Assembly (NCBI GenBank): GCA_002840095.1
Contig: PGZL01000005.1
Location: 186,001-250,000, forward strand
Reading direction: 5' to 3'
DNA from: Gammaproteobacteria bacterium HGW-Gammaproteobacteria-1
Lineage (GTDB): Bacteria; Pseudomonadota; Gammaproteobacteria; Thiohalomonadales; Thiohalomonadaceae
Length of the DNA: 64,000 nucleotides
Shown here: positions 732 to 22,918 of the stretch, one piece after another
Numbering within the stretch: the stretch's first letter is position 1
Layout: each line of letters starts with the position of its first letter
The notes under the pieces: model-generated
Seen by the model: the letters and a program-made list of their open reading frames with translations, nothing else
Database searches by the model: none
Told to the model about the DNA's origin: nothing
Translations under genes and position numbers: made by a program

Positions 732-733
732 CG

Positions 734-1777: not shown

Positions 1778-1779
1778 GC

Positions 1780-3561: not shown

Positions 3562-3568
3562 GGTTTAT

Positions 3569-4531
3569 ATGTCGACCATCATATCTATCGAAGCTTTAGG
3601 TGCGATACTCCCGCCAAGTATTGATCTATATCTGACGTCAGCAAGTTTTGAATCGCGATCTGTTTCGGCCAGTCGCGGTGTGTCGAAGTGTGACGTCAAA
3701 AAAGCGCTCATATTTTATGCAAATGAATATGCTCATTTTTCACTGGAAAATGTTCATGCCATAAACGCCCTATTTGATCAGAAGGCAAAAATCACTGAGC
3801 TGAATGTCAACGATCCAATACATGTTGCAGATAGCTTTGTGGATGAATTCGAACGCGCCACGAATAATAGCACTTCAATTACGGTTGTTATTGACGCAAC
3901 AACGTTTACACGGGAAAGTCTTCTGATTTTGCTGAGCATTGTGCACAAATATCGAAATAAGATTGGCGTGGCAAAGCTAGTCTATACGCGCGCAAAAGAA
4001 ATGAGCAATGAATGGCTAAGTAAGGGGGTAGTCGATTACAGGTCAATTCTTGGCTATCTTGGAGAAATATCTCCACTTAGAAGGTTGCATTTAATTCTCA
4101 TGACTGGGTTCGAGGTTGAGCGCGCGTGGAATATCGTAAGCAAATATGAGCCAGATCTGGTTAGCATAGGTATAGGCGCCAAAGATAACTCTATAAGTAT
4201 GGAGTTCTATGAGAGGAACTGCAAATTCGCGAAAGAGCTGGAAAGTCTATTTGGTGTAGCGGTTGGGCATTTCGAGTTTTCGCTCACGGATCCATACGAA
4301 ACGGGAGCCGCGCTGATCGCATACATCGATTCGCATAATGGGAATTACAACACAGTCGTCGCGCCGTTAAATAACAAGCTATCGACAATAGGCGCTGGAT
4401 TGGCGGCAATTAAGAACAAAAATATTCAGTTGTGCTACGCGCAGCCAGAAGCATACAACGCAGAGACATATTCAGTTCCCGATGAAAATTGTTACGTTGT
4501 GGATATTCAAATAAATGAGTGGGAACAATAA
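3569..4531 (+). CDS. Unrecognised alpha/beta protein of the methyltransferase/HD/ATPase cluster
   Basis: 320 aa from ATG 3569, preceded by GAGG (3560-3563) that overlaps the ATPase stop; an earlier in-frame TTG at 3548 is less likely. I do not recognise the family. The sequence alternates hydrophobic strands and helices (for example TVVIDATTF, KLVYTRA, NTVVAPLNN), which suggests a Rossmann-like fold. Notable segments are SASFESRS near the N-terminus and IGIGAKDNS in the middle. There is no signal peptide or membrane segment. It is the last gene of the tight cluster and is followed directly by the RAYT-linked repeat array. A sensor or effector role is inferred only from position. Confidence 0.6.
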   Translation: MSTIISIEALGAILPPSIDLYLTSASFESRSVSASRGVSKCDVKKALIFYANEYAHFSLENVHAINALFDQKAKITELNVNDPIHVADSFVDEFERATNNSTSITVVIDATTFTRESLLILLSIVHKYRNKIGVAKLVYTRAKEMSNEWLSKGVVDYRSILGYLGEISPLRRLHLILMTGFEVERAWNIVSKYEPDLVSIGIGAKDNSISMEFYERNCKFAKELESLFGVAVGHFEFSLTDPYETGAALIAYIDSHNGNYNTVVAPLNNKLSTIGAGLAAIKNKNIQLCYAQPEAYNAETYSVPDENCYVVDIQINEWEQ

Positions 4532-4637
4532 TGGAGGGGGAGGCACAAACACAAACCACAAACAAGACACCCACTCATAAGAAATGAAGTACAAACAAGA
4601 CACCCACTCATGAAGTACAAACAAGACACCCACTCAT
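4532..4637 (+). repeat. Short AACAAGACACCCACTCAT motif copies, including a 26-bp perfect tandem duplication
   Basis: The 18-mer AACAAGACACCCACTCAT occurs at 4561-4578, 4594-4611 and 4620-4637. A 26-bp unit beginning GAAGTACAAACAAG is exactly duplicated in tandem at 4586-4611 and 4612-4637. The same 18-mer forms the left end of each longer repeat unit to the right, so these look like partial or stuttered ends of that family. No gene is visible here. Confidence 0.9.
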
Positions 4638-4812
4638 AAGAATGGCCGCCGGGCGCGGTCGATGAGGGGCGCGGGTTGGGCCAGTCAGCGGCAGTTTTCA
4701 GGCTAAAAAGCGGTTGATTCCGCATCCATCACCGTTTGGGACGACGATTTTTCAGACTTGGGACGAGACAGTCCCTCAGGCGGTGCCTGATCCGTGTTAA
4801 GAGGAGCGGGTG
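4620..4812 (+). repeat. RAYT-linked long repeat, unit A
   Basis: About 190-bp unit that begins with AACAAGACACCCACTCAT and ends near GGAGCGGGT. It carries a terminal palindrome TCAGGC-GGT-GCCTGA at 4776-4790. It is closely similar to unit C (5103-5290) and belongs to the same subfamily, with the internal GGCCGCCGGGCGCGGTCGAT and ACGATTTTTCAGACTTGG stretches. It contains no convincing ORF. Units A-D lie downstream of the RAYT gene at 5492-6472. Confidence 0.88.
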
Positions 4813-4863
4813 AGCAACAAACAAGACACCCACTCATAAGAATGGCCGCCGGGCGCGGCAACT

Positions 4864-5061
4864 ACAAGCTAGACACCCACTCATAAGAAAGGCCGTCCGG
4901 CGTAGCCGATGAGCTGCGTGGATTGGGCTGGCCAGCAGCGGTTTTCGGACCAAATGTCGTTGATTCCCGCGTCCCCCCAAGGTTCGTCCTACGATTTTGC
5001 AGGCGCGGGGCGCGACTATCCCTCAGGCGGTGCCTGATTCGGTGTTAAGCGGAGCGGGTGG
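4864..5061 (+). repeat. RAYT-linked long repeat, unit B
   Basis: Second unit; its left end is slightly altered (ACAAGCTAGACACCCACTCAT). It belongs with units D and E to a subfamily with AAATGTCGTTGATTCC and CCTACGATTTTGCAGGC. The terminal palindrome TCAGGC-GGT-GCCTGA is at 5023-5037. Between A and B lies another copy of the 18-mer (4820-4837) followed by a short truncated unit start. Confidence 0.87.
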
Positions 5062-5102
5062 GGGCTAGGTCCACACACACAAACAAGACACCCACACACA
5101 CA

Positions 5103-5290
5103 AACAAGACACCCACTCATATGAATGGCCGCCGGGCGCGGTCGATGAGGGGCGCGGGTTGGGCCAGTCAGCGGCAGTTTTCAGGCTAAAAATCGGTTGA
5201 TTCCGCATCCATCGACGTTTGGGACGACGATTTTTCAGACTTGGGACGAGACAGTCCCTCAGGCGGTGCCTGATCGGCGTTAATCGGAGC
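5103..5290 (+). repeat. RAYT-linked long repeat, unit C
   Basis: Near-identical to unit A over most of its length. The left end is AACAAGACACCCACTCAT at 5103-5120, and a partial copy of that motif lies just before it at 5082-5096 in a CA-rich stretch. The terminal palindrome TCAGGC-GGT-GCCTGA is at 5259-5273. A small ORF read through it on the minus strand is explained by the repeat and is not called as a gene. Confidence 0.88.
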
Positions 5291-5296
5291 CACACA

Positions 5297-5488
5297 AACA
5301 AGACACCCACTCATAAGAAAGGCCGTCCGGCGCAGCCGAAGAGGGTCACGGATTGGACCAGTCAGCGAGGTTTTCAGTCCAAATGTCGTTGATTCCGGCG
5401 TCCCCCGAAGGGGCGGCCTACGATTTTGCAGGCGCGGGGCGCGGCTATCCCTCAGGTATACCTGATCGGTGTTAAGCGGAGCGGGTAA
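5297..5488 (+). repeat. RAYT-linked long repeat, unit D
   Basis: Fourth unit, of the B/D/E subfamily, ending within a few bases of the RAYT stop codon. The terminal palindrome is changed to a perfect TCAGGTATACCTGA (5452-5465). Compared with units A-C both arms changed in step (GC to GT, GC to AC), so the pairing is preserved. Confidence 0.88.
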
Positions 5489-5491
5489 GGC

Positions 5492-6472
5492 CTAAGTCAG
5501 CAGTTCGCGGCAGGCCGCGAGGTTGGGTGTTCGCCGGTAGCCGAGGGATTTGCAGGCGGCCTTGAGTTTGTAGGCGGCCCCGACCAAGCCCTTGAAGCGG
5601 CTTTCGAAGTTCCTGGTCATGTGCAGCCAGTAGCGCGGGTCGATGTTCAGTCTTTCCAATATCGGCGGCAGGTGGGCGGGGATGGCACCGCGCTTGTCGT
5701 CGCGCAGTATCCTTCCGGTCCAGTCCACCAGTTCCAGGTAGTCCTCCAGGCGAAACGGCAGGCCCTTGGGCATCTCTTCTCTGGGGTTGCCGGCGAAGGG
5801 CAGCAAGTGGGACAGTTGTTCTGCGTTGCCGGCGAGAGCGGCTTGGATGCGCTCCTGTATCGAGGTGTGATCCGATGCCTCTGGGGTTGCGGCCATGCCG
5901 GCACGGATGGGATTGAGGTCGACATAGGCGAGGCAGGCGGCGAGGGCCTTTTCATCCAGCAGGGCCTGGGACTTGAAGCGGCCTTCCCAGAAATGGCCGG
6001 TGCAGTTGTCGTCCTCGTTGGCTTGGCGTGCGATGGACTCATTCAAACAACGCATGTACCAGCTGATATCGCTCAGACGGTTGCGCCACAGGGCGACGAG
6101 TTCCGCCACCAGTTTCCGTTCCACGTCCAATAAGTCATCGCCGGCGAGATAGCGCTGTGCCATGGGGTGGCCGACGAACAGTTCCTGCCAGCGGCGGATG
6201 ACTTCCGCATCGCTCCAGCCGGCTGCCTCCTGCCGATCGACGTGCAGCACTACGTGGTAATGATTGGACATGACCGCGAAGGCGCAGAGGTCGACGGCGA
6301 AGACCTGCGCCAGCGTCTTCATGCGGTCTTCAATCCACTGCCGGCGGTGTTCGAAGCTCTTGCCGGACTGGGCATCGTCGCCGCACAGGAAGGCGCGGCG
6401 CACGCAGCGGGAGACGCAGTGGTAGTAGGGGGTGGCCTCCAGCGAGACCAGGGCTTTCCTTGGCTTGGGCAT
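5492..6472 (-). CDS. REP-associated tyrosine transposase (RAYT / TnpA_REP, IS200-like Y1 family)
   Basis: 326 aa from ATG 6472, with AAGGA 8 nt upstream on the minus strand; an ORF extension to 6544 lacks a comparable ribosome site. The N-terminal MPKPRKALVSLEATPYYHCVSR start and the metal-binding HUH triad as SNHYHVVLHVD are typical of Y1 transposases. FWEGRFKSQALLDE and YVDLNPIRAG, with a Tyr in the latter conserved stretch, are RAYT hallmarks. The C-terminus is longer than in minimal IS200 TnpA. RAYTs are single-copy proteins that nick single-stranded REP hairpins. The four repeat units at its 3' side with hairpin ends, plus one copy at 9065, fit this protein as the agent of their spread. 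Confidence 0.93.
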   Translation of the reverse strand: MPKPRKALVSLEATPYYHCVSRCVRRAFLCGDDAQSGKSFEHRRQWIEDRMKTLAQVFAVDLCAFAVMSNHYHVVLHVDRQEAAGWSDAEVIRRWQELFVGHPMAQRYLAGDDLLDVERKLVAELVALWRNRLSDISWYMRCLNESIARQANEDDNCTGHFWEGRFKSQALLDEKALAACLAYVDLNPIRAGMAATPEASDHTSIQERIQAALAGNAEQLSHLLPFAGNPREEMPKGLPFRLEDYLELVDWTGRILRDDKRGAIPAHLPPILERLNIDPRYWLHMTRNFESRFKGLVGAAYKLKAACKSLGYRRTPNLAACRELLT

Positions 6473-6613
6473 GATATCGGTCCTTGATATCGAGGGAGTG
6501 GCTAAGGTTGCCATAGCTGCGGGGGACAAGGCAATGCCGGGCATATCCTGATGTGATGCACCCCTGACTTTCCGGACACCAGGATAAGGGGATAATGCGT
6601 TTTGCTTACTGCC

Positions 6614-6838
6614 CTACGATGGCTGTCGGCTGCTGATATAGAGTGCTTCCACCTTCGCCCTTGCCCATGGGGTCTTGCGCAGGAATTTGAGGCTGGAGGC
6701 GATGCTGGGGTCGTTGGTGAAGCATTTGATGGTGATGCGTCGCCCCAGCTCCTCCCAGCCAAATTTTTCCACCAGAAAGGTGAGTGCCATTTCCAGCGTC
6801 ACGCCGTGCAAGGGGTCTCGATTGCGTTGGCTATTCAT
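6614..6838 (-). CDS. VF530 family (DUF2132) small DNA-binding protein
   Basis: 74 aa. The sequence has the family pattern [41 protein letters not shown] and [13 protein letters not shown]. This family consists of short alpha-helical proteins; a solved Vibrio member suggested DNA binding, but the role is unknown. It lies between the RAYT gene and dbpA on the same strand, about 90 bp after the dbpA stop, and could be read from the dbpA transcript. Length and start match the family. Confidence 0.88.
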
Positions 6839-6925
6839 CTTTACTCCGTCTGGCAGAGACCAAACCGCCGTCCGAGGATTATTCAGCCGCAGGTTAAAAA
6901 TCCTGGCTGCGTTCGTTGGTGACGG

Positions 6926-8305
<1,380 letters not shown>

Positions 8306-8466
8306 GGAGGGCCTTGAGAGATTCTGGAGTTGCCGAGATGGCGTCAAGCGCCATGATACCAGCAAGCGTAGTCGCTGATGTCACAACAGTACTACCGGCG
8401 ACTAATGACTGATGGGCTTGAACGTAGGGCGAGTAACTGGCTGGGTATCTTTCATGTCGTAACGCA

Positions 8467-8492
8467 CAAGGGGCGCCGAGTGGCGCCCCTTG
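8467..8492. terminator. 11-bp perfect hairpin, possible bidirectional terminator
   Basis: CAAGGGGCGCC, loop GAGT, GGCGCCCCTTG. It lies just downstream (minus strand) of the stop of the TauD-like pseudogene and upstream of dbpA. No long T tract follows on either strand, so termination would be weak or protein-assisted. Confidence 0.6.
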
Positions 8493-8506
8493 TTGTCTGG
8501 GAGGGG

Positions 8507-9060
8507 TCACAACGCGTAAATATCCGCGATGCCGGTGCCTTCCAGGCGGTCGAATAACGGGCGCGGTAGTAGTGGCGCTTGTGGGTGGCGTCGTCGGTGA
8601 AGCCGGCGCGGTCGTGCAGCACGTTGTTGCTGACCAGGCCCATGCCCGATTCCAGGCGGCCGCGGTAGATGTAGGGCGACGGGTTGTTGAGAATCTCCTG
8701 CAGACAGGCGAGGGCCTCGCGGCTCAGCGGGTCATCGGCCCAGATCACATTGTTGACGCGGATGGTGTAGCGCATGTGCAGATCGCCCGAGGGCATGATG
8801 GCGAACACCGCGCCCGGTTCTTCCGGGCGGGCCACCGTGCCGCCTTCGTCGATGCGCGCCGGAATGGTCATGGCCTTGGGAGCCATCAGGGCGCGGATGT
8901 AGTCGGGATTCTTCTCGCGCAGCAGGATGTAGGCGATCTCGTGATCCATCAGCTGGTTCTCGCCGCCGCTGGCAGCCTGCATCACCACATGCAGGTTGAG
9001 GGCGTGGATCTGGCGGTTGGCGGCGTTGTGGTAGCCGTCGGTGTGCCAGTTGATGGCAAC
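8507..9060 (-). pseudogene. Truncated and frameshifted TauD/TfdA-like dioxygenase pseudogene
   Basis: Minus-strand remnant closely similar to the C-terminal ~60% of the intact dioxygenase at 37272-38204, starting at INWHTDGYHNAANRQ (it keeps the HTD iron-binding motif) and running to the end. Two lesions are visible. The 5' part is missing and replaced by repeat unit E, whose left end abuts the homology at about 9057-9065. Near 8565 one T is lost in CGTTATTTCGA (here CGTTATTCGA), which shifts the frame after YYRARY. In the corrected frame the sequence reads on to a stop at 8507-8509. An ORF through 8452-9078 exists only because the repeat end supplies an ATG. Confidence 0.9.
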
Positions 9061-9064
9061 GACA

Positions 9065-9238
9065 AACAAGACACCCACTCATAAGAAAGGCGTCAGGCGC
9101 AGCCGATGAGCGGCGCGGATTGGGCTGATCAGGCGCGGTTTTCCGGCCAAATGTCGTTGATTCCTGCGTTTCCCGAAGGGGCTGCCTACGATTTTGTAGG
9201 CTCGGGGCGCGACTATTCCTCAGGCAGTACCTGAGGAA
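9065..9238 (+). repeat. RAYT-linked long repeat, unit E (inside dioxygenase pseudogene)
   Basis: Fifth copy, about 3.6 kb from the array. The left end AACAAGACACCCACTCAT is at 9065-9082, the body is similar to units B and D (AAATGTCGTTGATTCC, TACGATTTTGTAGGC), and the terminal hairpin TTCCTCAGG-CAGTA-CCTGAGGAA is at 9216-9238. Arm sequences differ from the other units but still pair over 9 bp. After the hairpin comes about 90 bp of unremarkable sequence before the ada start. Confidence 0.9.
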
Positions 9239-9331
9239 ACAGCAAGATCCGGGTTGAGCCTGGGCTATCCAGTTCCGATAATTGCTTCTATTGCCATTGC
9301 GAAAATTTGGCATGTCGCCGGAGGCAGATGA

Positions 9332-10159
9332 ATGTCCGAATATGACCGTATAGCCAAGGCCATCGCGTATATCTCCAGTCATGCCGGCAGCCAGCCCTCC
9401 CTGGACGATGTCGCGGCGCACGTGCATCTCAGCGCCTACCATTTTCAGCGCCTGTTCGCCCGCTGGGCAGGCATTTCCCCAAAGCGATTCCTTCAGGTGC
9501 TTACCCTGGACAGGGCAAAACAATTGCTGCGCGAATCGCGTCCATTGACTGAGGTGTCCGACGCGGTGGGGCTAAGCGGTGCTTCGCGACTCTACGATCA
9601 CTTCGTACAGCTGGAGGCTGTGACGCCGGGAGAGTATCGCCGGTATGGAATCGGGTTGCGTGTCGAATACGGCATACATGACACGCCTTTCGGTAAGGTC
9701 TTCGTGGCGGTGACTCCACGCGGTATCTGCGCCCTCGCATTCATAGGCGATGAAGATCGTGACCTGCATATCGCAGAGTTGCATCTGAAGTGGCCACAAG
9801 CCGCCATTCATGAGAACCCGGGAAGTACACGCCCGGTGATCGATTCTATTGAGAAAGGCGGGGCTGCAGATCGGCCGCTTTCTCTGTTCGTCTCGGGCAC
9901 AAATTTCCAGATCAATGTATGGCGTGCACTGCTGCATATCCCGTCAGGCAGGGTGGCCAGCTATGGGGATGTGGCCAAGGCCATAGGGCATCCCCGTTCG
10001 GCACGAGCAGTGGGTAATGCAATAGGCATGAATCCTGTGGCTCTGCTTATTCCATGTCACCGGGTAATTGCCGAAACCGGCCAACTGGCCGGATATCGTT
10101 GGGGAGAGAACAGGAAGCAGGCCATATTGACATGGGAAATTGCCCGGCATGAGCGGTAG
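9332..10159 (+). CDS. AraC-type HTH fused to O6-methylguanine-DNA methyltransferase (Ada-like, lacking the Zn/Cys N-domain)
   Basis: 275 aa, with GGAGGCAG upstream of ATG 9332. Residues about 1-100 form an AraC HTH (LDDVAAHVHLSAYHFQRLF, LTLDRAKQLLRESR). The C-terminal half is a DNA-cysteine methyltransferase with the active-site PCHRVI (acceptor Cys at about residue 242) and the helix-turn-helix arginine-finger stretch SARAVGNAIG. It would remove O6-alkyl groups from guanine by suicide transfer. The N-terminal AdaA domain that accepts methyl phosphotriesters, and that makes E. coli Ada an activator, is absent, so autoregulation by methylation is doubtful. The downstream 200 bp hold no gene. 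Confidence 0.93.
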   Translation: MSEYDRIAKAIAYISSHAGSQPSLDDVAAHVHLSAYHFQRLFARWAGISPKRFLQVLTLDRAKQLLRESRPLTEVSDAVGLSGASRLYDHFVQLEAVTPGEYRRYGIGLRVEYGIHDTPFGKVFVAVTPRGICALAFIGDEDRDLHIAELHLKWPQAAIHENPGSTRPVIDSIEKGGAADRPLSLFVSGTNFQINVWRALLHIPSGRVASYGDVAKAIGHPRSARAVGNAIGMNPVALLIPCHRVIAETGQLAGYRWGENRKQAILTWEIARHER

Positions 10160-10295
10160 ACGGGCATTGCCAAGGACTCAACCATTGGAGGGGGCAGAAT
10201 ACAGATATGGATACGTTCCGGAACCAGGATGAGCCGTAAGCCATGTAGCAAATCCTGTATGTGATGCCACCTTGATTTCCGGGAGATATCTTGCT

Positions 10296-10323
10296 ATACC
10301 CATAAACTGCATGGGTATTATAA
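10296..10323. promoter_or_regulatory. ATACCCAT/ATGGGTAT inverted repeat upstream of candidate precursor gene
   Basis: ATACCCAT (10296-10303) and ATGGGTAT (10311-10318) face each other across 7 bp. The right arm is part of TGCATGGGTATTATAA (10308-10323), whose exact 16-bp reverse complement lies after the gene at 10556-10571. It could be an operator or an RNA hairpin in the leader. Confidence 0.6.
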
Positions 10324-10362
10324 AATGGATTGGACACCTATCGAAATATGAGAGGGAATATT

Positions 10363-10539
10363 ATGGAAGATAGAAGCAAACACCCCGGCAAAGAAAGTAA
10401 AACGTCAAAGTCGAAAGTGGGAAATCCGAAGGAGAGAATGGCCAGCCTGAAGGCCCAGGCCACGCTCACTGATGATGAGCACAATATCATCGGTTACTTC
10501 TCGGAGACCGTTGCCCAAAACTGTGAGAAGTCAACATAA
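10363..10539 (+). CDS. Candidate RiPP precursor peptide (58 aa)
   Basis: Starts at ATG 10363 after AGAGGGA (10351-10357), which sets the start; an upstream TTG in the ORF is unlikely. The N-terminal half is very basic and rich in Lys and Ser (KHPGKESKTSKSKVGN), a leader-like region. The C-terminal half contains TLTDDEHNIIGYFSETVAQN followed by CEKST, with the single Cys near the end. It lacks a signal peptide. A small peptide gene directly upstream of a SPASM radical SAM gene and a B12 radical SAM gene is the usual layout of RiPP loci; the precursor role is inferred from that position. I do not recognise a known precursor family. Confidence 0.6.
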   Translation: MEDRSKHPGKESKTSKSKVGNPKERMASLKAQATLTDDEHNIIGYFSETVAQNCEKST

Positions 10540-10555
10540 GTAGCTAGTTCGGGAC

Positions 10556-10571
10556 TTATAATACCCATGCA
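10556..10571. repeat. Right arm of a 16-bp perfect inverted repeat flanking the precursor gene
   Basis: TTATAATACCCATGCA is the exact reverse complement of 10308-10323. It lies between the small peptide gene and the radical SAM start and contains TATAAT, so it could also carry a -10 element for the radical SAM gene. Role unknown. Confidence 0.75.
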
Positions 10572-10617
10572 CTAACGCCAACTTCAGGCTTTGGATTTCG
10601 TGGCGCACGAGATACCG

Positions 10618-11778
10618 ATGTCACTTGCAATAGGCTCATTCGAAGTATCCAGTCTGCAAATACATGTCACTGAAAAGTGCAACCTCAGATGCAAGAATTG
10701 CTTTAATCAGAACACAAGCCAGGAGATTGGCGTCAGCTCATTCAAACGCCTGCATGACTCGGCCGACAGATCCGGGTTTTCTTCGATAACATTGACCGGC
10801 GGTGAACCACTGCTGCATAGCCATTTCTATGATTTGCTCGATGCAATCAAACTCCCGTTCAGCATATTTACAAACGGCCTGCGACTGAGGAAGAAGTCGT
10901 TTTTTAACGCCTTCTCTCATGCCATAAAAAACAAGAATCTCAAGCAAATCCAGGTGTCACTGGACAGCATTGGCAATAACCAGGCGTACCGCAGCGTTTC
11001 GTCCAGTCTCGTTTTGGAATCGATCAATGCGATAAAGAAACTCGATACCAGATGCGTTGTCGCGACATCGATCAATGGATGCAATATTCACGAAATACCA
11101 GTTTTGTATGACACTTTATGCAGCCTGGGGGTTGATGTCTGGCGCGTCTGCGTAACGTTTCCCGTCAGCCACAAAGGAATGACTGGCGCTGAGACATTAT
11201 CATTCGACGAACTGTCGGCCGGGCTGCACAAGGTTTTTTTGGCCAATCACGCCAATAACAACCCTATGAAAGTTGAAGTCAGCAACTATTGCTCAAGCAC
11301 ACCGCCGCCTGCCACAACCGAAAACATCAGGTTCGAAGCAATAGAACGCCACTTCGCAAGCAAAAACACATGCGCGGCTTGCAGCAAAAGTATGACGATT
11401 AAAAGTAATGGAGAGGTAAAGATATGCGACGCCTTGGGGGAGATGCCACATGGCAACTTGGCGTCATACGACTGGGACATAGGTAACGCCCTATCGCACA
11501 ACTCGGCTCTGCACAACAATATCATCAAATTCGATTCAATAAAAACAAACCGCCACTGCCTGTCGTGTAAATATCTATTAATCTGTCATGGAGGCTGCCT
11601 TGGAAACTCATATCGATGGATGAACACCCTCGACACACCGGATCCAATCGCATGCAACTTGATGGCACGTTCAGAATCGACCTTCGAGCTTCTTGGATAC
11701 AACAGGTTCATCAACACAAATGCGTGCCCACCATATCATTTAAATAGTTCTACAGAACCAATCAAAAAGGAAGCGTGA
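10618..11778 (+). CDS. Radical SAM/SPASM peptide maturase
   Basis: 386 aa from ATG 10618 (GAG 7 nt upstream); a TTG at 10591 is an alternative. The radical SAM motif CNLRCKNC has its cysteines at about residues 21, 25 and 28, followed by the GGEP motif (TLTGGEPLLHS). The C-terminal SPASM domain is complete: CAAC, GEVKIC (GX4C), then CX2CX5CX3C (CLSCKYLLICHGGC) and a last Cys (PIACN). SPASM enzymes bind auxiliary 4Fe-4S clusters and modify ribosomal peptides, forming thioether, C-C or C-O links. It sits between the 58-residue peptide gene and a B12 radical SAM gene and is AT-rich compared with the flanks. Substrate assignment is inferred from neighbourhood. Confidence 0.88.
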   Translation: MSLAIGSFEVSSLQIHVTEKCNLRCKNCFNQNTSQEIGVSSFKRLHDSADRSGFSSITLTGGEPLLHSHFYDLLDAIKLPFSIFTNGLRLRKKSFFNAFSHAIKNKNLKQIQVSLDSIGNNQAYRSVSSSLVLESINAIKKLDTRCVVATSINGCNIHEIPVLYDTLCSLGVDVWRVCVTFPVSHKGMTGAETLSFDELSAGLHKVFLANHANNNPMKVEVSNYCSSTPPPATTENIRFEAIERHFASKNTCAACSKSMTIKSNGEVKICDALGEMPHGNLASYDWDIGNALSHNSALHNNIIKFDSIKTNRHCLSCKYLLICHGGCLGNSYRWMNTLDTPDPIACNLMARSESTFELLGYNRFINTNACPPYHLNSSTEPIKKEA

Positions 11779-11782
11779 AACC

Positions 11783-13810
11783 GTGGCTGCAAATGGAATT
11801 GAAACGGCACTAATCTACCCGCCAATAGCGGATGTCACCCAGATGTACCCGGCCATTCCGTCGCTCGCGGCGTTTTTAAGCCACAACAACAAGGCCGTCA
11901 AACAATTCGACCTCAATATCGATTTTTACACCAGAATGCTGTCCACAGAGCGCATAAAGTATGCGTTCTATGAGTTACTGGAAAAAGAGCGCGACAATGA
12001 AGACGAGGCGCGTGTGCCGCAACATGTTATCGAGGTCGCAAAAATACTATACGGGAACACGGTAGAAAATATATCAGCCGCAATAAGCGAAATAAAGAAC
12101 GTATCGACGTACGAAGACATCAAGACCTACAGGTGGTGCACCAACATCATAGAAAACGCATTATTTATCGTGTCAGCACCCTTTCATCCTACAAGGATTG
12201 GTATTTTCTCCTATGACATGCGGTACTCCGTCGATAGTTCGGATGAAGTCAGGTCCGCCATACTCGACACAAGGGAAAATCCTTTTATTGACTATTTTCA
12301 CGATTCAATTGAAAGCGGAACACTAAGGGACATCCGCAAATTTGACTTGATCGGGGTTTCCGTCACCTACCAGAATCAGCTTATCCCCGCACTTACATTG
12401 GCAAAAGAAATACGAAGGAAACACCCCGCATGTAAACTGGTTATTGGGGGACAGTTTCTTACTCAATCCGTAATGCCATTGCTTAAGTCCTCAATCCTGT
12501 CAGAGTACTTCGATTATGTCATTACGCATGAAGGCGAAACGGCACTATTGAGGCTGGTTCAGTTCCTGGAAGGAGCCGGGAATGAAGGCAACATTCCAAA
12601 TTTTGTCAATTTGGACAGCAGCTCAGCGAAAGAGGAGTACGAAACCACCGCGACGCTATGCCGCGTACACACTGAAGACCTTGATGCACTGCCAACACCG
12701 GATTATTCCCAGTTTCCCCACAAGGAATATCTGTCACCGCTTGTGCTGCTGCTGGCCCCCACCAGGGGGTGTTACTGGAACAAGTGTTCATTTTGCGACA
12801 TATCGCCTTCCATGAAGAAGATGTACCGAGAACGTTCGGTGGAAAACGTGGTAAAAGACATTGCCCGGTTAAAAGAAGCGTATTCGACAAAATTCTTCAA
12901 TTTTTCAGTCGACGCCATCACCCCGAAGTATCTCAAGCATCTCGCCCAGGCACTGATTGACAATAAAACTGATGTCTTGTGGGGGGCTGAGCTGCGAATG
13001 GAAAAACAATTCGCCAAAGAGGAGTTCGCCGAGCTGCTCTATAACGCCGGTTTGCGCTACGTATTTTTCGGCTTTGAATCAGCAAGCCAGCGCGTCATAG
13101 ATTTGGTCAAAAAAGGGACGTCGGTTAACGCATCGGAAACGATGGTTCAAGTGTTCTCTAAATATGGAATAAAGATATATCTCGCCTGGATCGTTGGCTT
13201 GCCCGGCGAAATGGAAGAGGACTTTTGGGAAACCGTAGACTTCATTGACAGAAACAAGGAGCACATACACTCCTCTGGAGCGACGGAATTTTATTTGTCA
13301 ATCAATACCGACATCGGTTTGCGGCCACAAAAATATGGCATAACCATACTCGACAAAGATCTTGATCTGTCTGTATCACGCGATTATCTGCCAAACAAAG
13401 GATTCACTCAGCACGACGCCAAGCATTTTACCAAAGTCGCACGAATTTTTCTCGAAGATACATTCACGCTTTTTACTACTGGCGGATTGAATGCGCACTC
13501 GTTCCTCTCTTCATTAGTGATGCCTTCTTCATTGCGCGGCGATCACTTTGACATGGAGTCATTATCGACTTACAAACCGATAGATACTTTATTGGTCATA
13601 CAATCAAATGCGCTGAAAGAGAAGTGGTTTCTATTCGACACCATCACACAAAAGCTCTTGCTTGCCAACAAACGCAACGTGGACATAATCAGGAACACGC
13701 CAAACGAACCAACCGATAAAGACTTTGCTTTTTACAGGATGTTGTTCAACAACAACCTGTTAACCAAGCAACCGGCAGGGCACCGCCGGTTTTCGGACGG
13801 CAAGGCATAA
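11783..13810 (+). CDS. B12-binding-domain radical SAM protein (candidate peptide methyltransferase/maturase)
   Basis: 675 aa from GTG 11783, with AAGGAAG upstream overlapping the end of the SPASM gene; 4 nt separate the two genes. A Rossmann-like cobalamin-binding-type domain is seen around residues 180-260 (FDLIGVSVTYQNQLIPALTL, KLVIGGQF, ITHEGETALL). No DxHxxG lower-ligand motif is visible, so the cobalamin could bind base-off. The radical SAM motif RGCYWNKCSFC has CX4CX2C spacing (cysteines at about 330, 335 and 338) rather than CX3CX2C. A TIM-barrel follows, then a C-terminal extension of about 190 residues. Such enzymes often methylate unactivated carbons of peptides. Together with the SPASM enzyme it forms a two-enzyme maturation cassette. 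Confidence 0.85.
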   Translation: MAANGIETALIYPPIADVTQMYPAIPSLAAFLSHNNKAVKQFDLNIDFYTRMLSTERIKYAFYELLEKERDNEDEARVPQHVIEVAKILYGNTVENISAAISEIKNVSTYEDIKTYRWCTNIIENALFIVSAPFHPTRIGIFSYDMRYSVDSSDEVRSAILDTRENPFIDYFHDSIESGTLRDIRKFDLIGVSVTYQNQLIPALTLAKEIRRKHPACKLVIGGQFLTQSVMPLLKSSILSEYFDYVITHEGETALLRLVQFLEGAGNEGNIPNFVNLDSSSAKEEYETTATLCRVHTEDLDALPTPDYSQFPHKEYLSPLVLLLAPTRGCYWNKCSFCDISPSMKKMYRERSVENVVKDIARLKEAYSTKFFNFSVDAITPKYLKHLAQALIDNKTDVLWGAELRMEKQFAKEEFAELLYNAGLRYVFFGFESASQRVIDLVKKGTSVNASETMVQVFSKYGIKIYLAWIVGLPGEMEEDFWETVDFIDRNKEHIHSSGATEFYLSINTDIGLRPQKYGITILDKDLDLSVSRDYLPNKGFTQHDAKHFTKVARIFLEDTFTLFTTGGLNAHSFLSSLVMPSSLRGDHFDMESLSTYKPIDTLLVIQSNALKEKWFLFDTITQKLLLANKRNVDIIRNTPNEPTDKDFAFYRMLFNNNLLTKQPAGHRRFSDGKA

Positions 13811-13849
13811 GGATAGTATTCCGGGGCGGCATCCGAAAGATCGGGAAAC

Positions 13850-14305
13850 ATGAAACCGACTATTAATGTGAGTGCGATGGAGCGCGGAAAGCTGCTCCTG
13901 TTCAAAAACCTGTTCCTGGCGGCTGCATTGTGGAATCTGGCCGGGGCGGGATTCGGTTACTTCAATACGGCCTTTACCTTCGAGCAATTCTTTGGAAGGG
14001 AGCTGGCGGATCCCCTGATCCACGAGATCTACCGGGGCGCCTGGGGCACCACGCTGGTCTACTTCATCGGCTACCTGATCGTGGCGCACAATCCAGTCAG
14101 GCATGTGGGCATAGTCATCGTCGGCGGCATCGGCAAGCTCGGATACGTGGTCAATCTGCTGAAGCTGTACCTCTCCGGCATCGCCAACCCGGTGGTTCTC
14201 GTCGTTGTCGGCGGTGACGCTCTGTTTCTCCTGTTCTTTGCCTATTACTTTTTAGAGCTGTACCGGACGAGGCACAGGAACGACGAACAAAACATCCATT
14301 CATAG
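13850..14305 (+). CDS. Four-helix integral membrane protein, unknown function
   Basis: 151 aa. Four hydrophobic segments can be seen (around residues 20-38, 66-82, 87-108 and 113-137), with a charged C-terminal tail RTRHRNDEQ. This size and layout match small inner-membrane proteins annotated only as hypothetical. It is GC-rich like the chromosome, so it is not part of the AT-rich radical SAM island 40 bp upstream. A downstream start at the ATG for residue 10 is possible. It is followed by a strong terminator at 14408. Confidence 0.65.
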   Translation: MKPTINVSAMERGKLLLFKNLFLAAALWNLAGAGFGYFNTAFTFEQFFGRELADPLIHEIYRGAWGTTLVYFIGYLIVAHNPVRHVGIVIVGGIGKLGYVVNLLKLYLSGIANPVVLVVVGGDALFLLFFAYYFLELYRTRHRNDEQNIHS

Positions 14306-14407
14306 GCGCGAAAAGCACCATCAGCGGCGCCATCGTGGCGTTCCAGGACAGGCGGAACAGCTCACTGTGTTCCTGTCGCCGGTACGTTGACAAAATATGG
14401 ACGTAAA

Positions 14408-14437
14408 AAAAGCCGGTCATATCTGACCGGCTTTTTT
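14408..14437. terminator. Strong bidirectional intrinsic terminator
   Basis: AAAGCCGGTCA, loop TATC, TGACCGGCTTT, flanked by an A run on the left and a T run on the right. It lies between convergent genes (13850-14305 plus, 14453-14641 minus) and serves both. Confidence 0.93.
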
Positions 14438-14452
14438 ATCGGCACGCGTAAT

Positions 14453-14641
14453 CTAATTTCGTGCAGCCTGCACGATCACGACGATGAGCGACACCAGGGC
14501 AATGACACCACAGGTAATAGCCGCAGCCATATACGCACCCTGGTTACTGTCGCCGCCGACGGCGGACAGTATGCCAAACACGATAGCCAGTACTCCGCCG
14601 ACGATAAGGCTACCCACCCCGAATTTGGTACTCGTTTGCAT
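14453..14641 (-). CDS. Small two-TM membrane protein
   Basis: 62 aa with GGAGA before the ATG on the minus strand. Two hydrophobic helices (about 9-29 and 37-58) are separated by a short polar loop GGDSNQGAY, and the tail is short (QAARN). It resembles small stress-type membrane proteins (Aha-, YtxH- or DUF-type), but I cannot name a family. It ends convergently at the terminator at 14408-14437. The 240 bp upstream hold no other gene that I can support. Confidence 0.65.
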   Translation of the reverse strand: MQTSTKFGVGSLIVGGVLAIVFGILSAVGGDSNQGAYMAAAITCGVIALVSLIVVIVQAARN

Positions 14642-14880
14642 AGCAGAATCTCCATTTCTCTTGATGTTCGAGGCGTATGTCGCCTCTACCTTTCCTGAAG
14701 CACGCTGACGCGTGCACCAGGATGATACCGTCGCAGATTTTGTCCGAAAGGACTGTCGGTTGTTCCCGTGGATTTATGTAGGAACCGTATTACATCATGG
14801 CGTCCGGTACCATTCCGGGCGGCTGTCCCTGCTGGTACATGTCATCGATTGTATGGAAAGGGGAATTGCCGACTTTCTAC

Positions 14881-15234
14881 CTAACCCAGCTCCGCCATCT
14901 CGCTGTCGCTGAATACCCGGGAGCGGGTGAGGAAGGCCTTGCCTTCCGGGCCTTCGAGGGAGAAGGTGCCGCCGTGGCCTTCGGTCACGTCGATGATCAG
15001 TTGGGTGTGCTTCCAGTACTGGTATTGCGACTTGCTGATGTAGAAGGGGCAGCCGCCGATGTCGCCGAGGTATTCATCGCCGGCACCGATGGTGAGCTCA
15101 CCGGGCAGATAGCAGTTGGCGGCGCTGTTGTCGCAGCAGCCGCCGGACTGGTGGAACAGCAGTTCGCCGTGCTTTTGCTTCAGGGATTCGATCAGTTCCA
15201 GGGCGGCGTCGGTGGCGATGACTTTCTCTACCAT
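14881..15234 (-). CDS. DUF779 protein, partner of aldehyde dehydrogenase
   Basis: 117 aa; the start is fixed by AGGAGGAGAC before the ATG. The DUF779 signature is clear: FHQSGGCCDNSAANCYLPGE with clustered cysteines, then GDIGGCPFYISKSQYQYWKHTQ and the C-terminal GHGGTFSLEGPEG. The family is found next to acetaldehyde dehydrogenases; its biochemical role is not settled, but a metal-binding or protective role is often suggested from the Cys cluster. Second gene of the ald operon; a GC-rich hairpin lies between the two. Confidence 0.9.
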   Translation of the reverse strand: MVEKVIATDAALELIESLKQKHGELLFHQSGGCCDNSAANCYLPGELTIGAGDEYLGDIGGCPFYISKSQYQYWKHTQLIIDVTEGHGGTFSLEGPEGKAFLTRSRVFSDSEMAELG

Positions 15235-15249
15235 GTCTCCTCCTGATGG

Positions 15250-15273
15250 GGCGGGGCGGTCGCCCGCCCCGCC
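15250..15273. other. GC-rich 10-bp hairpin between ald and DUF779 gene
   Basis: GGCGGGGCGG, loop TCGC, CCGCCCCGCC. It has no T tract and lies within the presumed ald-DUF779 transcript. It could stabilise the upstream message or lower readthrough into the DUF779 gene. Confidence 0.55.
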
Positions 15274-15296
15274 AGGGGTTTGCCGGACGGTCCTGC

Positions 15297-16817
<1,521 letters not shown>

Positions 16818-19207: not shown

Positions 19208-21769
19208 TTAACTGAGATCGGCATTGGGGCCGGCGGCCCTCATGTCGTGGAGCAGCTGTGTAATTTCGTCGGCGGGAAGCGGCCGGCTATAGAAATACCC
19301 TTGCAGGTAGTCGCAGTTGAGTTTTACCAGGAAGTCGCGTTGCGCTTCGTTTTCCACACCCTCGGCCACGATTTTCAGGCCAAGATTGTGGGCCAGCGCC
19401 ACCGTCGCACTGCATATCTCGGCATCGTTCTCATCGCTCTCGATATCCCGGACAAAACTCCGGTCCAGCTTCAGGGTATTGATCGGCAGCCGCTTCAGAT
19501 AGCTCAGTGACGAATAGCCGGTACCGAAATCATCGATCGCAATGCTGATACCCTGCGCACGCAAGGCGTTCAATTGCGCCACGGCCACTGCCGGGTCGTT
19601 CATTGCCGCCGTCTCGGTGACCTCGATCTCCAGGTGTTTTCCATCGAGCTGGTGTTGCTTCAGGATGGCTTCGATTTCGTCGCTCAGGGTTTCCGACTGC
19701 AACTGTCTGGCGGAGAGATTGAGCGCAATCTTGAAGTCGCCATGTCCGAGCGTGTGCCACGCAACCAGCTGACGGCACACCGCGTCGGTCACCCAGCGCC
19801 CGAGATCGAAAATGATGCCGGACTCTTCCGCGATGGTGATGAACTGATCCGGGTAGATCAGGCCGTCTTGAGGATGGTTCCAGCGCACCAACGCCTCCAT
19901 GGCGACAATATGTCCATCACCGGCACGAACCTGCGGCTGATAGTGAAGCTCCAGCTGATTGGAGCGGACGGCAACCCGCAATTCACGCTCGATGCGCAGC
20001 CGTTCACTGGCGGCAACGAGCATCGCCTCGTTGAAGTAGTGATAACTGCTCCGGCCATGCTCCTTGGCGTGGTACATCGCCACGTCAGCCGCCTTCATCA
20101 GGTCATCCACAATCACGCCGTCGTCCGGATAGATGCTGATGCCGATGCTGGGGCTGGTGTTGATCACATGGCCATCCACCTCATACTGGCGGGAAACATT
20201 TTGCAGTATGTTCTCCGCCACGACGGCGGCATGGGAGTTGTCCTTGATTCCAACAAGCACCACGACGAATTCGTCGCCACCGATACGCGCCACGATATCG
20301 CTGTCCCGTACACAGGCCTTGAGCCGTCCCGCCACTTCGATCAGGAGTTTGTCGCCTATCTGATGTCCCAGTGAGTCGTTTATGTTCTTGAATCGATCGA
20401 GATCGATGAACAGAAGTCCTATCCGCTGTTGTTCGCGACGGGCGCTGGCAATCACCTGTTCCAGGCGGACTTCCATACTGAAGCGGTTATGCAGGCCGGT
20501 CAGGATGTCATGATGCGCCAGATGCTCGATGCGGGCCTCCGCTTCCTTGCGGGCGCTGATGTCGGTGAAGCTGGCGATATAAAACAACACCTCACCCGTC
20601 TCGCTGCGAATCGCTGAAATCCTTATCCATTTCGGGTATATCTCGCCGTTTCTTTTGCGGTCCCACAGTTCCCCCTGCCAGAAACTTATCTCAGACAGGT
20701 CCCGCCACATTTCGCGATAGACTCCGGCCGGCGTCTCGCCGCTGGCCAAAAGCTTGGGATCCTTACCCATGACCTCATCCGGCCCATAGCCCGTCTGCCT
20801 GGTAAAGGCCGCATTGACGTCGATGATGTGATTGTCTTTGTCCGTTATCAGCATCGCTTCGCCGCTGCTGTCGAATGCATTGGCATAGAGCCGCAACTCG
20901 TCGGCGCTCCTCTCGGCATCCTGTTTGGCTTCGCGCAGTGCGTCGTGTGCCTGCCTGATGCTGTGGGCCATTTCCTTCATTGAACGGGTCAGGTTGCCGA
21001 CTTCATCCCCGGAATCGACCAGCAGTGGTGCACTGAGATTGCCGGACGAGGCCTCGCCGGTCCATTGCAGCAGGTGTGATATACGCAGGGTGACCCGGCG
21101 CATGACCAGCCATGAGATTAGCGTCAGCAGTCCGACGCCGGCGATTCCGAATGCTATCGTTGATTTCAGGTTCCACTTGGCCTCGTCCGCCAGTTGCCGC
21201 CGCAGCTGGGTTACGTTCTCGAGGGCACTCCGCTTCATTTCCCGCAGATTTTCGGTGACGGGGGGCAAATGATTGTTATCGCTTGCCGTGAGTTTGATGA
21301 AGGCCGATTCCTTTTCAAAATCCTCACTCAGCTTCATGATCTCCCGAACCTGGCCCAGGTAGGCCCTGACGGAGGCCGACAGGCGCATGCTGCCCTCGAT
21401 GAATTCCGGCTCATCGGAATATCCGGCGCCAGAAACCTCATCGAGGTTCTGGTGCAGCGAACGGGTGACCGCATCGAGCTCAGCGTGGATTTCCTGCATC
21501 GCGTGGTAGCTTTCGCTTGCCAGGTGGCGCAGGCTTAGTGACCTTATGGAAGTGACTCCGGATTCAATGCTGTCCATCACCTGCAAGCGCCTGTCGCTGG
21601 ATGAATAGACCCGCCCCAGCTCGCTCACGGAGTCCTGCAGCATGAAGGCCGAATAGGCCGCTGCCAGCAGACAGATACCACCCACCAGCAGCATGGGGGC
21701 AATCAGCTGCTGGGACAGCGGCCGGTCCTGAAGCCGCTGCAACATGAAAGGCAGCCTGCTAGGGCGCAT
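19208..21769 (-). CDS. Membrane-bound PAS-GGDEF-EAL c-di-GMP enzyme
   Basis: 853 aa from ATG 21769, which overlaps the end of the ModA-like gene by 11 nt; ATG 21745 is an alternative, and the ORF upstream of both is out of family. An N-terminal TM helix (LLVGGICLLAAAYSAF), a periplasmic helical sensor of about 190 residues and a second TM (TIAFGIAGVGLLTLISWLVM) are followed by HAMP, PAS/PAC, GGDEF with intact RIGGDEF, and EAL with MEALVRWNHP and [14 protein letters not shown]. Both active-site motifs look intact, so it could make or degrade c-di-GMP. Translational overlap with a periplasmic binding protein suggests that protein feeds the sensor. Confidence 0.92.
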   Translation of the reverse strand: MRPSRLPFMLQRLQDRPLSQQLIAPMLLVGGICLLAAAYSAFMLQDSVSELGRVYSSSDRRLQVMDSIESGVTSIRSLSLRHLASESYHAMQEIHAELDAVTRSLHQNLDEVSGAGYSDEPEFIEGSMRLSASVRAYLGQVREIMKLSEDFEKESAFIKLTASDNNHLPPVTENLREMKRSALENVTQLRRQLADEAKWNLKSTIAFGIAGVGLLTLISWLVMRRVTLRISHLLQWTGEASSGNLSAPLLVDSGDEVGNLTRSMKEMAHSIRQAHDALREAKQDAERSADELRLYANAFDSSGEAMLITDKDNHIIDVNAAFTRQTGYGPDEVMGKDPKLLASGETPAGVYREMWRDLSEISFWQGELWDRKRNGEIYPKWIRISAIRSETGEVLFYIASFTDISARKEAEARIEHLAHHDILTGLHNRFSMEVRLEQVIASARREQQRIGLLFIDLDRFKNINDSLGHQIGDKLLIEVAGRLKACVRDSDIVARIGGDEFVVVLVGIKDNSHAAVVAENILQNVSRQYEVDGHVINTSPSIGISIYPDDGVIVDDLMKAADVAMYHAKEHGRSSYHYFNEAMLVAASERLRIERELRVAVRSNQLELHYQPQVRAGDGHIVAMEALVRWNHPQDGLIYPDQFITIAEESGIIFDLGRWVTDAVCRQLVAWHTLGHGDFKIALNLSARQLQSETLSDEIEAILKQHQLDGKHLEIEVTETAAMNDPAVAVAQLNALRAQGISIAIDDFGTGYSSLSYLKRLPINTLKLDRSFVRDIESDENDAEICSATVALAHNLGLKIVAEGVENEAQRDFLVKLNCDYLQGYFYSRPLPADEITQLLHDMRAAGPNADLS

Positions 21770-22532
21770 AGACCCTGAATCCCTCCGCCGCAAATATGGC
21801 CTGCGCCTCCGATCCCTGCATGAAGCGAACAAACTGGGAGACGGCGACGGTTTCCGCGGCGCTGGTGAGAGGAGCGGCGTAATAGCGTATCGGTTCGTGC
21901 CAGGCTTCATCGACCGCCAGCAGGATGCGGTGGCGTGAAGTGATGTTGCTGCTGAACAGTATGCCCACCGTTGCGTCATCCGCGTCAGCCAGCGTGTCAG
22001 CCAGCAGGGTGATATGCTTTTTGGTGACTATCTTGCTCTTGGCCTGCTCCCAGATGGCCGTGTGCTGCATGGCTTCCTTGGCGTAGCGTCCAAACGGTGC
22101 CGTGCCGGGATCGCCGATCAGGATCGTCTTTACCTTGCTTGTGGCCAGCTCGGCCCAGGCGGTCAGTTCCAGCGGGCTGCTCTTCGCTGCCGCCACCACC
22201 AGGACGTTCCCCCATGGACTCATCACATCATCCGACCTGACCATGCCGGCGTCGATCATGAAATCCATCCACTCCCTGCTCGCCGCGACATAGACGTCGG
22301 CACTTATCGCGCCGCCCTTCAGGCCCTTGGCGAGGAGGCCGGATGATTTGCACTGGTAAACGATATGGGAACCGCTGCGCTGCTCGAATAGCCTGCCCAC
22401 TTTTTGCATGGCGCTGCAGGTGGAGTTGGCGACAGCGACACTGATCGTATCTGCGGACGCGTAGGCCGGCGCCAGCACCGCGACAAGAAAACCAAGGATG
22501 GCGGTGGCGACACCATGCAATACCTTGTTCAT
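21759..22532 (-). CDS. ModA-like periplasmic substrate-binding protein without ABC partners
   Basis: 257 aa from ATG 22532 (AGGAG 8 nt upstream). A signal peptide (VATAILGFLVAVLAPAYASA) precedes the mature sequence DTISVAVANSTCSAMQKVGRLFEQ. The two-lobe binding protein pattern resembles ModA/WtpA (SSGLLAKGLKGGAISADVYVAASREWMD, GDPGTAPFGRYAKEAM), so the ligand could be molybdate, tungstate or another oxyanion. No permease or ATPase gene is near. Instead the stop codon overlaps the start of a GGDEF-EAL sensor gene, and both are likely one transcript. I infer a sensing rather than a transport role. Confidence 0.8.
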   Translation of the reverse strand: MNKVLHGVATAILGFLVAVLAPAYASADTISVAVANSTCSAMQKVGRLFEQRSGSHIVYQCKSSGLLAKGLKGGAISADVYVAASREWMDFMIDAGMVRSDDVMSPWGNVLVVAAAKSSPLELTAWAELATSKVKTILIGDPGTAPFGRYAKEAMQHTAIWEQAKSKIVTKKHITLLADTLADADDATVGILFSSNITSRHRILLAVDEAWHEPIRYYAAPLTSAAETVAVSQFVRFMQGSEAQAIFAAEGFRVYAP

Positions 22533-22918
22533 GGCCAGCACTCCTGCAGCGTCAGGGCGGTATGAAAATGTCGAATGGATATCAACGGCGACAAACGGAG
22601 TTGTTTCTGTTTACGCCGGGGTATGGTTTATTTGTCTCCCATCGAGATAATAAGGGAAAGACGTAGATGCGCAACAGTGGGCAAGCTACGATTCCTTAAC
22701 AATCGTGGGGATGAATACAGGAATCGCTAATATAGATGGCGGCCCGCAGGTCGACCAGGCCCGTCAAACACACCTTGTTGTTATCGCTCCTGTTTTCTGC
22801 TAACCAGTGACGTCCTGGCTCAGCCATCAGGAGGTCGTAGCGCTCCGCATGTTGCGAGACGGGAGATTCAGCATTTTTCCACTCGACACCCGATATCGTG
22901 CCAACCACAGGAAGGACC
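22533..22918. other. Intergenic region, no supported gene
   Basis: 386 bp between divergent modA-like and DUF4202 genes. A 74-codon minus-strand ORF here overlaps the DUF4202 start and has no recognisable features. The region probably holds the two promoters, but I see no confident -35/-10 pair. Confidence 0.5.

Follow-up and report, generated by a model that had tools for sequence, protein, structure and literature searches.

Radical S-adenosylmethionine (SAM) enzymes of the SPASM type and cobalamin (B12) radical SAM enzymes that act on one precursor are already known among ribosomally synthesized and post-translationally modified peptides (RiPPs). The cassette described here, in a 64,000-nucleotide window of Gammaproteobacteria bacterium HGW-Gammaproteobacteria-1 (assembly GCA_002840095.1, contig PGZL01000005.1, positions 186,001–250,000), is an isolated variant of that arrangement. 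On the plus strand it encodes, in tandem, a 58-codon open reading frame (ORF; peptide P0001), a radical SAM/SPASM enzyme (P0002), and a B12-type radical SAM enzyme (P0003). On balance, the locus probably represents a horizontally acquired, minimal RiPP-type cassette. The window is part of contig C67 of a 4.2-Mb genome.

In the polytheonamide pathway, the epimerase PoyD and the B12 C-methyltransferases PoyB and PoyC act on one precursor, according to the accessible text of two papers (PMC8326336, PMC11285071). The likeness lies in the use of a radical SAM epimerase and B12 radical SAM methyltransferases on a single precursor. Unlike that pathway, the window cassette has a peptide with no nitrile-hydratase-like leader (no family match), and its B12 enzyme carries the motif Cx4Cx2C, where the accessible text of PMC11285071 gives Cx7Cx2C for PoyC. 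In the biphenomycin-like pbs cluster, a B12 radical SAM enzyme cross-links aromatic residues of a ribosomal peptide, as stated in the accessible part of PMC12257519. That system is similar in that a B12 radical SAM enzyme modifies a ribosomal peptide; it differs in that the enzyme acts, by the same text, after a multinuclear non-heme iron-dependent oxidative enzyme, which is not among the three genes of the window. A SPASM-type enzyme can also form cyclopropylglycine (PMC9062424, accessible part); it is called SPASM type here because that text gives it up to three [4Fe-4S] clusters.

Actinobacterial aroma-sacti loci (NF045560 in L029, one of the numbered loci compared below; 19 loci by a profile built here) likewise combine a small peptide, often Cys-terminal, with SPASM-type and P0003-type enzymes. 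The two enzyme genes of L029 are separated by about 2 kb, in contrast to 4 nt in the window cassette, and its SPASM enzyme matches TIGR04463 best, whereas P0002 scores best with MoaA. P0001 itself falls outside the aroma-sacti profile. Literature searches aimed at the enzyme classes, related peptides, and invertons, and not at the cassette itself, which has no name, listed no description of it.

Gene content and base composition

A 58-residue peptide gene with a ribosome site, followed by a radical SAM/SPASM gene and, 4 nt on, by a B12 radical SAM gene, had been named in the original prediction; the coordinates and enzyme classes were borne out (Table 1). The Shine-Dalgarno-like site of the peptide gene stands 5 nt before its ATG. 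The 4-nt spacer runs from the stop codon of the SPASM gene to the GTG start of the B12 gene, which has AAGGAAG upstream as its own Shine-Dalgarno-like site. The candidate starts of the SPASM gene have weak sites only.

The cassette has a guanine-plus-cytosine (GC) content of about 47%, against about 60% in its flanks. A three-segment fit of positions 8500–16500 placed the low-GC block at 10200–14880, with a left-edge range of 9740–10280 and a loose right edge (range 13740–14920). Low GC is also seen over the initial 4.5 kb of the window. Judged by base composition, the cassette was apparently acquired horizontally. Its neighbors are an Ada-like gene on one side and, on the other, a 151-aa ORF that matched no family. 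In a check for mobile-element ends, no target-site duplication was seen by eye. The same-genus genome G302, compared in search of an empty site, has the Ada gene in common and is not syntenic around it. The GC step, like the inverted repeat described below, was absent from the original prediction.

Radical SAM enzymes

P0002 carries a CX3CX2C motif at residues 30–37, GGEP at residue 70, and all seven SPASM-spaced cysteines (264, 279, 323, 326, 332, 336, and 355), in the spacing of the SPASM motif (C-X9-15-G-X4-C, CX2CX5CX3C, C). In Pfam, Radical_SAM scored 43.8 bits, over its cut-off, and SPASM scored 15.2 bits, under its cut-off of 21.5. The best solved relatives by sequence were SkfB (E 4.5e-10), 5v1q (1.8e-8), and 5wgg (4.1e-7; SPASM part only). 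SkfB, the closest of them, is a RiPP maturase; 5v1q and 5wgg are SuiB and CteB, likewise RiPP maturases. The top NCBIfam score was that of MoaA (84.1 bits, below cut-off). P0002 was not assigned as a prokaryotic viperin by NCBIfam (59.6 bits against a cut-off of 180); the PADLOC model pVip gave 69.9 bits, in a library that shows no cut-offs. A single-sequence structure model of P0002 had a mean predicted local distance difference test (pLDDT) score of 37.3 and was left unused.

P0003 models as a cobalamin-type radical SAM enzyme, with a B12-binding fold followed by a radical SAM barrel. The B12-binding domain lies at about residues 185–258, and the cluster motif is C330-X4-C335-X2-C338. The structure model, made from a 40-row alignment, has a mean pLDDT of 81.9; it gives no confident fold for the final ~95 residues, with 583–643 and 654–675 under pLDDT 50. 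Structural matches were OxsB, AprD4, TsrM, and MgmA (Z 23.6 to 21.5), and TokK and CysS were also among the neighbors. AprD4 is not known to use cobalamin. In Pfam, B12-binding scored 29.5 bits, under its cut-off of 32.1, and Radical_SAM 61.8 bits, over its cut-off. The best NCBIfam match was TIGR03975, a RiPP maturation radical SAM C-methyltransferase (E 8.2e-34 over residues 185–490); P0003 falls short of membership by the curated cut-off (117.1 against 281.85 bits).

Relatives were sought in the cassette's own genome and in samples of 298, 55, 397, 30, 395, and 368 other genomes, which partly overlap. P0003 relatives were present in 5 of the 298 other genomes of the phylum at E 1e-40 and in 8 of the 368 other genomes of the class at E 1e-30. 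The best class relatives, from two genomes of one genus, are 31–32% identical over about 570 residues. Eighty loci from many phyla, with 26–33% identity, were found via six exact 8-residue patterns, so that relatives without these words were missed; RGCYWNKC is one of the six, and its apparent invariance among the relatives is partly due to the construction of the search. P0002 had no match at E 1e-12 in 55 related genomes or 397 other genomes of the phylum. At E 1e-18 it matched in 2 of 395 genomes from the phylum to which a Desulfocapsa genome belongs (no score above 69.6 bits), and at E 1e-8 in 20 of 30 genomes holding a P0003 relative (at most 68.9 bits), these being the genomes of 30 of the 80 loci. 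In what was searched, no relative exceeded 33% identity to P0003, or about 28% to P0002 over its length. Viral contigs contained no relative of either enzyme.

Neighborhoods of distant relatives

A SPASM-type ORF was encoded within 5 kb of the B12 gene in 27 of the 80 P0003-relative loci, as counted with a regular expression on ORFs of 250–620 aa, several contigs ending early. In the window, the expression matched P0002 only. It missed L015, which has SPASM and B12 enzymes with a PqqD-like gene below its cut-off and was added by hand to the tree labels. Nineteen of the 27 loci also encode an aroma-sacti-type peptide, by a profile built from 15 of these same peptides; the L029 peptide was confirmed by NCBIfam (68.8 bits, cut-off 30). 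In a quick tree of 93 rows, the SPASM pairing (28 rows, L015 included) needs 7 changes, where shuffles need 24.5; supported branches force at least 5 of the 7. Near-copies cluster by themselves in this tree, and P0003 stands alone on a long branch whose placement is unsure.

Two of the loci fetched through P0002 also match P0003. L151, an uncharacterized Omnitrophota locus, has the gene order of the window cassette behind a PqqD gene (55.8 bits): a 50-aa, K-rich peptide ORF that stands behind AAGGAGAGA and has a good ribosome site, a P0002-like gene (30% identity over residues 17–125, E 8e-13), and a P0003-like gene (22%, E 3e-8). This candidate RiPP locus spans 6778–10398. Its peptide has a basic first half and an acidic second half, as P0001 does, and is dissimilar in sequence. 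Unlike the window cassette, L151 has the PqqD gene in front and a peptide without cysteine. L150 encodes a P0002-like domain fused to a methyltransferase, with the B12 enzyme separate.

Three further loci are candidate RiPP loci. L066 (Elusimicrobia, 9863–14724) encodes a B12 enzyme fused to a PqqD domain, a SPASM-type enzyme, and a 62-aa Cys-containing ORF; in L071 (Syntrophaceae, 1113–5794) and L087 (Omnitrophota, 5549–11200, from the same genome as L151), B12 radical SAM, SPASM-type, and PqqD-type genes occur together, the PqqD of L087 being recognized by eye and alignment. L066 and L071 resemble the window cassette in placing a P0003-like B12 enzyme beside a SPASM-type enzyme of 357–369 aa, and L066 also in its small ORF. 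Both differ from it in having PqqD, and L071 in having an S24-type peptidase; the window cassette has neither. L066, L071, and L015 all lie outside the actinobacterial clade that supplies most of the paired tree rows.

Two loci come from the window's own class. In L148, a SPASM-type gene comes after the P0003-like gene. In L147 (7023–10578), a P0003-like gene at 7023–9077 is followed after 1.1 kb by a Nif11-like peptide that has a double-glycine-like site and scores 19.1 bits, short of the cut-off of 23.8. P0003-like enzymes of Actinoplanes (L017, L018) lie near NHLP-like peptides that score below cut-off.

Multiple copies were also observed. Four actinobacterial loci (L019, L024, L031, and L032) have two tandem B12 radical SAM genes, and in L024, L031, and L032 more than one ORF matches the aroma-sacti profile. 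A Bacillota metagenome-assembled contig (L013, 5922–18789) carries five P0003-related genes in 13 kb.

Peptide gene

Judging from codon use and the ribosome site, the P0001 ORF is probably a real gene. The codon score of P0001 in frame, 0.091 per codon, was reached by 1.1% of stop-free shuffles. Pieces of 58 codons from the enzyme genes scored 0.173 ± 0.046 (minimum 0.056) and off-frame pieces at most 0.065, with a codon table trained on the two enzyme genes from which the comparison pieces were also drawn. A 58-codon ORF arose by chance in the spacer in 25% of 4000 first-order simulations, and a 58-codon ORF with a Shine-Dalgarno-like site in 2.65% of 4000, the list of accepted motifs having been drawn up after the site was seen. 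The first 30 residues of P0001 are K/S-rich with a net charge of +5, and the last 28 have a net charge of −4. Its only cysteine is Cys54.

The precursor had been said to match no known family, and no match was found in NCBIfam, PHROGs, or PADLOC. The best Pfam match, Bflower_2, had an E value of 0.091 and 13.1 bits, where the cut-off is 38, and was put down to chance. Searches of phages and plasmids gave chance-level matches only (E 4 to 9), viral contigs held no relative, and among the ORFs of 116 loci P0001 matched only its own copies. It is single-copy in its own genome. By eye, LTDDEHNII of P0001 resembles the aroma-sacti leader stretch LSPDEVAVL; this candidate was rejected, with a score of 1.8 bits that at least 12 of 2000 shuffled copies exceeded.

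Interpretation of the cassette

The RiPP-type reading is the best one because the nearest solved relative of P0002 is a RiPP maturase, and because distant P0003 relatives occur repeatedly with SPASM-type enzymes and precursor-like peptides, once in the same order (L151). A short precursor-like gene adjoins the enzymes, as in the layout of a RiPP locus; the enzymes themselves would then be peptide-modifying. The 58-residue peptide would be the ribosomal precursor. Its putative leader comprises the basic N-terminal half and the stretch around LTDDEHNII, and its putative core is the C-terminal part that contains Tyr45, Phe46, and the only cysteine, Cys54. The SPASM enzyme may alter the peptide by one radical reaction, for example by cross-linking, thioether formation, or epimerization. 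The cobalamin radical SAM enzyme, translated directly behind it, may introduce another change, for example a C-methyl group or an additional cross-link. Host proteins would take care of export and proteolysis, if these occur at all. The chance that at least one of the enzymes uses the peptide as a substrate is somewhat better than even; that both act on it is an inference.

The RiPP-like cassette of the original prediction kept its enzyme classes and gained support from distant loci, while no peptide homologue, close relative of the pair, RiPP recognition element (RRE), or PqqD partner was found; these and other results weigh against the reading. P0001 had no homologue in any search made and is not an aroma-sacti leader by the profile built here or by NCBIfam. 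Both enzymes score far under the NCBIfam cut-offs shown for their matches, and the genome samples searched contained no close relative of the P0002/P0003 pair. NCBIfam and Pfam gave no PqqD-type gene in the cassette. The dedicated PqqD-type partner of a pyrroloquinoline quinone (PQQ)- or mycofactocin-type pathway was found neither there nor, beyond one partial match inside a 517-aa ORF (23.9 bits, cut-off 23.4), in the rest of the genome. An RRE in the C-terminus of P0003 looked plausible by eye; with a 6-sequence PqqD profile, hhalign gave a probability of 0.1% for that tail and 0.2% for P0002, and it also missed the tails of three relatives. As had been noted originally, there is no transporter or protease gene nearby: the scanned direct neighbors, some of them without any family match, include none. 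Such genes are usual and not obligatory in RiPP clusters. A solute-binding protein encoded at 21759–22541 is the closest protein of transport type.

The neighborhoods also supply points against a RiPP cassette. No SPASM-type ORF is in reach in 53 of the 80 P0003-relative loci (L015 wrongly among them), and 20 of the 28 paired tree rows belong to one actinobacterial clade. Such an ORF is lacking beside the class relatives most like P0003, L141 (4.3-kb contig) and L146 (18 kb); in L003 to L009, L139, L143, and L145, several of these loci being short; and beside the plasmid-borne relatives L111, L112, L114, L115, and L116. Among the class matches, the neighborhoods of L141 and L143 are short contigs, and three matches fell outside the neighborhood comparison. 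In L151, the first radical SAM enzyme is 318 aa long and without the CX2CX5CX3C of a full SPASM domain.

Two other explanations of the three genes were weighed. The two enzymes could form a pathway for a non-peptide substrate, such as a lipid, glycan, or cofactor, with the small ORF as a regulatory leader or an unrelated small protein. The presence of small-molecule enzymes (OxsB, AprD4, TokK, and CysS) among the structural neighbors of P0003, the sub-threshold MoaA score of P0002, and the loci without a SPASM-type ORF all agree with such a pathway. P0002, however, has all the cysteines of a SPASM domain, its best solved relative is a RiPP maturase, the small ORF shares its GC block with the enzymes, and L151 keeps the order of peptide, P0002-like, and P0003-like genes. 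We regard a non-peptide pathway as unlikely, at something like a one-in-five level of belief. It is more doubtful still that the peptide ORF is no gene, that an RNA or DNA element marked by the inverted repeat lies there instead, and that the enzyme substrate is encoded elsewhere. A frame of this length was common in simulated spacers, the repeat is statistically the strongest feature, and the region has a stable predicted fold (below), whereas the codon score and the ribosome site both argue for a translated peptide.

Inverted repeat around the peptide gene

The arms of a perfect 16-bp inverted repeat enclose the peptide gene with its ribosome site. No other inverted repeat in the window is perfect over 16 bp within 320 nt; such a repeat arose by chance in 2 of 2000 simulated 4.5-kb regions. 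The arms have no further copy in the genome. The left arm doubles as half of a palindrome, ATACCCAT-n7-ATGGGTAT (10296–10318), which is unique in the genome for spacers of 4–20. Three copies of ATACCCAT lie within 10296–10568 and six in the window, where 0.99 are expected. In the predicted RNA fold of the region, the 16-bp arms form the closing stem (z = −3.9, 0 of 100 shuffles).

Three readings of the repeat remain: an mRNA stem or processing site, copies of an operator, and the ends of an invertible segment. There is a little under an even chance that the arms either pair into a long mRNA stem around the peptide message, which would set the peptide:enzyme ratio (for example as an RNase III processing site), or serve as operator half-sites. 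The closing stem of the predicted fold and the excess of ATACCCAT in the window are consistent with these, while no second locus is available for covariation and the cassette contains no regulator gene. Both are compatible with the cassette being of RiPP type. A phase-variable RiPP precursor, with the peptide gene in an invertible 264-bp segment bounded by the repeat, is improbable. The 16-bp arms fall within the 10–40 nt of inverton repeats given in the accessible text of PMC11892184, and no site-specific recombinase was found among the 40 window ORFs scanned with Pfam. An outward promoter-like site lies on the minus strand at 10344–10317, with TATAAT in the left arm; the region has 4 such sites against 5.4 expected in shuffles. 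Were the segment an inverton, its inversion would silence the precursor or break its coupling to the maturases, and the promoter-like site would then point into the SPASM gene. Stochastic switching of a radical SAM peptide pathway would, as far as we know, be a novel way of controlling RiPPs. Of the papers listed by a literature search, none describes such a switch in its title or abstract opening.

Table 1. Coordinates of the cassette and associated features in the 64-kb window
Feature	Position	Strand	Basis
Low-GC stretch with cassette	10200..13810		composition; best-fit right edge 14880
Left arm, perfect 16-bp inverted repeat, TGCATGGGTATTATAA	10308..10323	+	repeat search
Shine-Dalgarno-like site of peptide gene, GAGAGGGA	10350..10357	+	sequence
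Peptide gene (P0001), 58 aa	10363..10539	+	ORF, codon use
Right arm of inverted repeat, TTATAATACCCATGCA on +	10556..10571	-	repeat search
Radical SAM/SPASM enzyme (P0002), 395 aa from TTG 10591 or 386 aa from ATG 10618	10591..11778	+	ORF, motifs
B12-type radical SAM enzyme (P0003), 675 aa, GTG start	11783..13810	+	ORF, motifs, model

Other features of the window

A four-gene low-GC block (~43–49%) at 15–4531 encodes a C5 DNA methylase, an HD-CE protein, an ORC-CDC6-like ATPase, and a CARF6-type protein (PADLOC, 288.3 bits), and looks like an antiphage defense operon. On the minus strand, 5492–6544 weakly resembles REP-associated tyrosine transposase (44.4 bits, where the cut-off is 80), and 61059–62087 encodes a DNase II family protein (272.1 bits). 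The DNase II family is better known from animals.

Significance

If the peptide is the shared substrate, the locus would be a very small SPASM plus cobalamin radical SAM cassette that lacks the recognition protein or peptidase accompanying some related pairs. The chemistry is not predictable from relatives because, in what was searched, these are at most 33% identical to P0003 and at most about 28% to P0002. The three genes span 3.4 kb and could easily be expressed and tested. How precursor dose is controlled is a separate question, prompted by the perfect repeat on either side of the precursor gene and open to direct testing.

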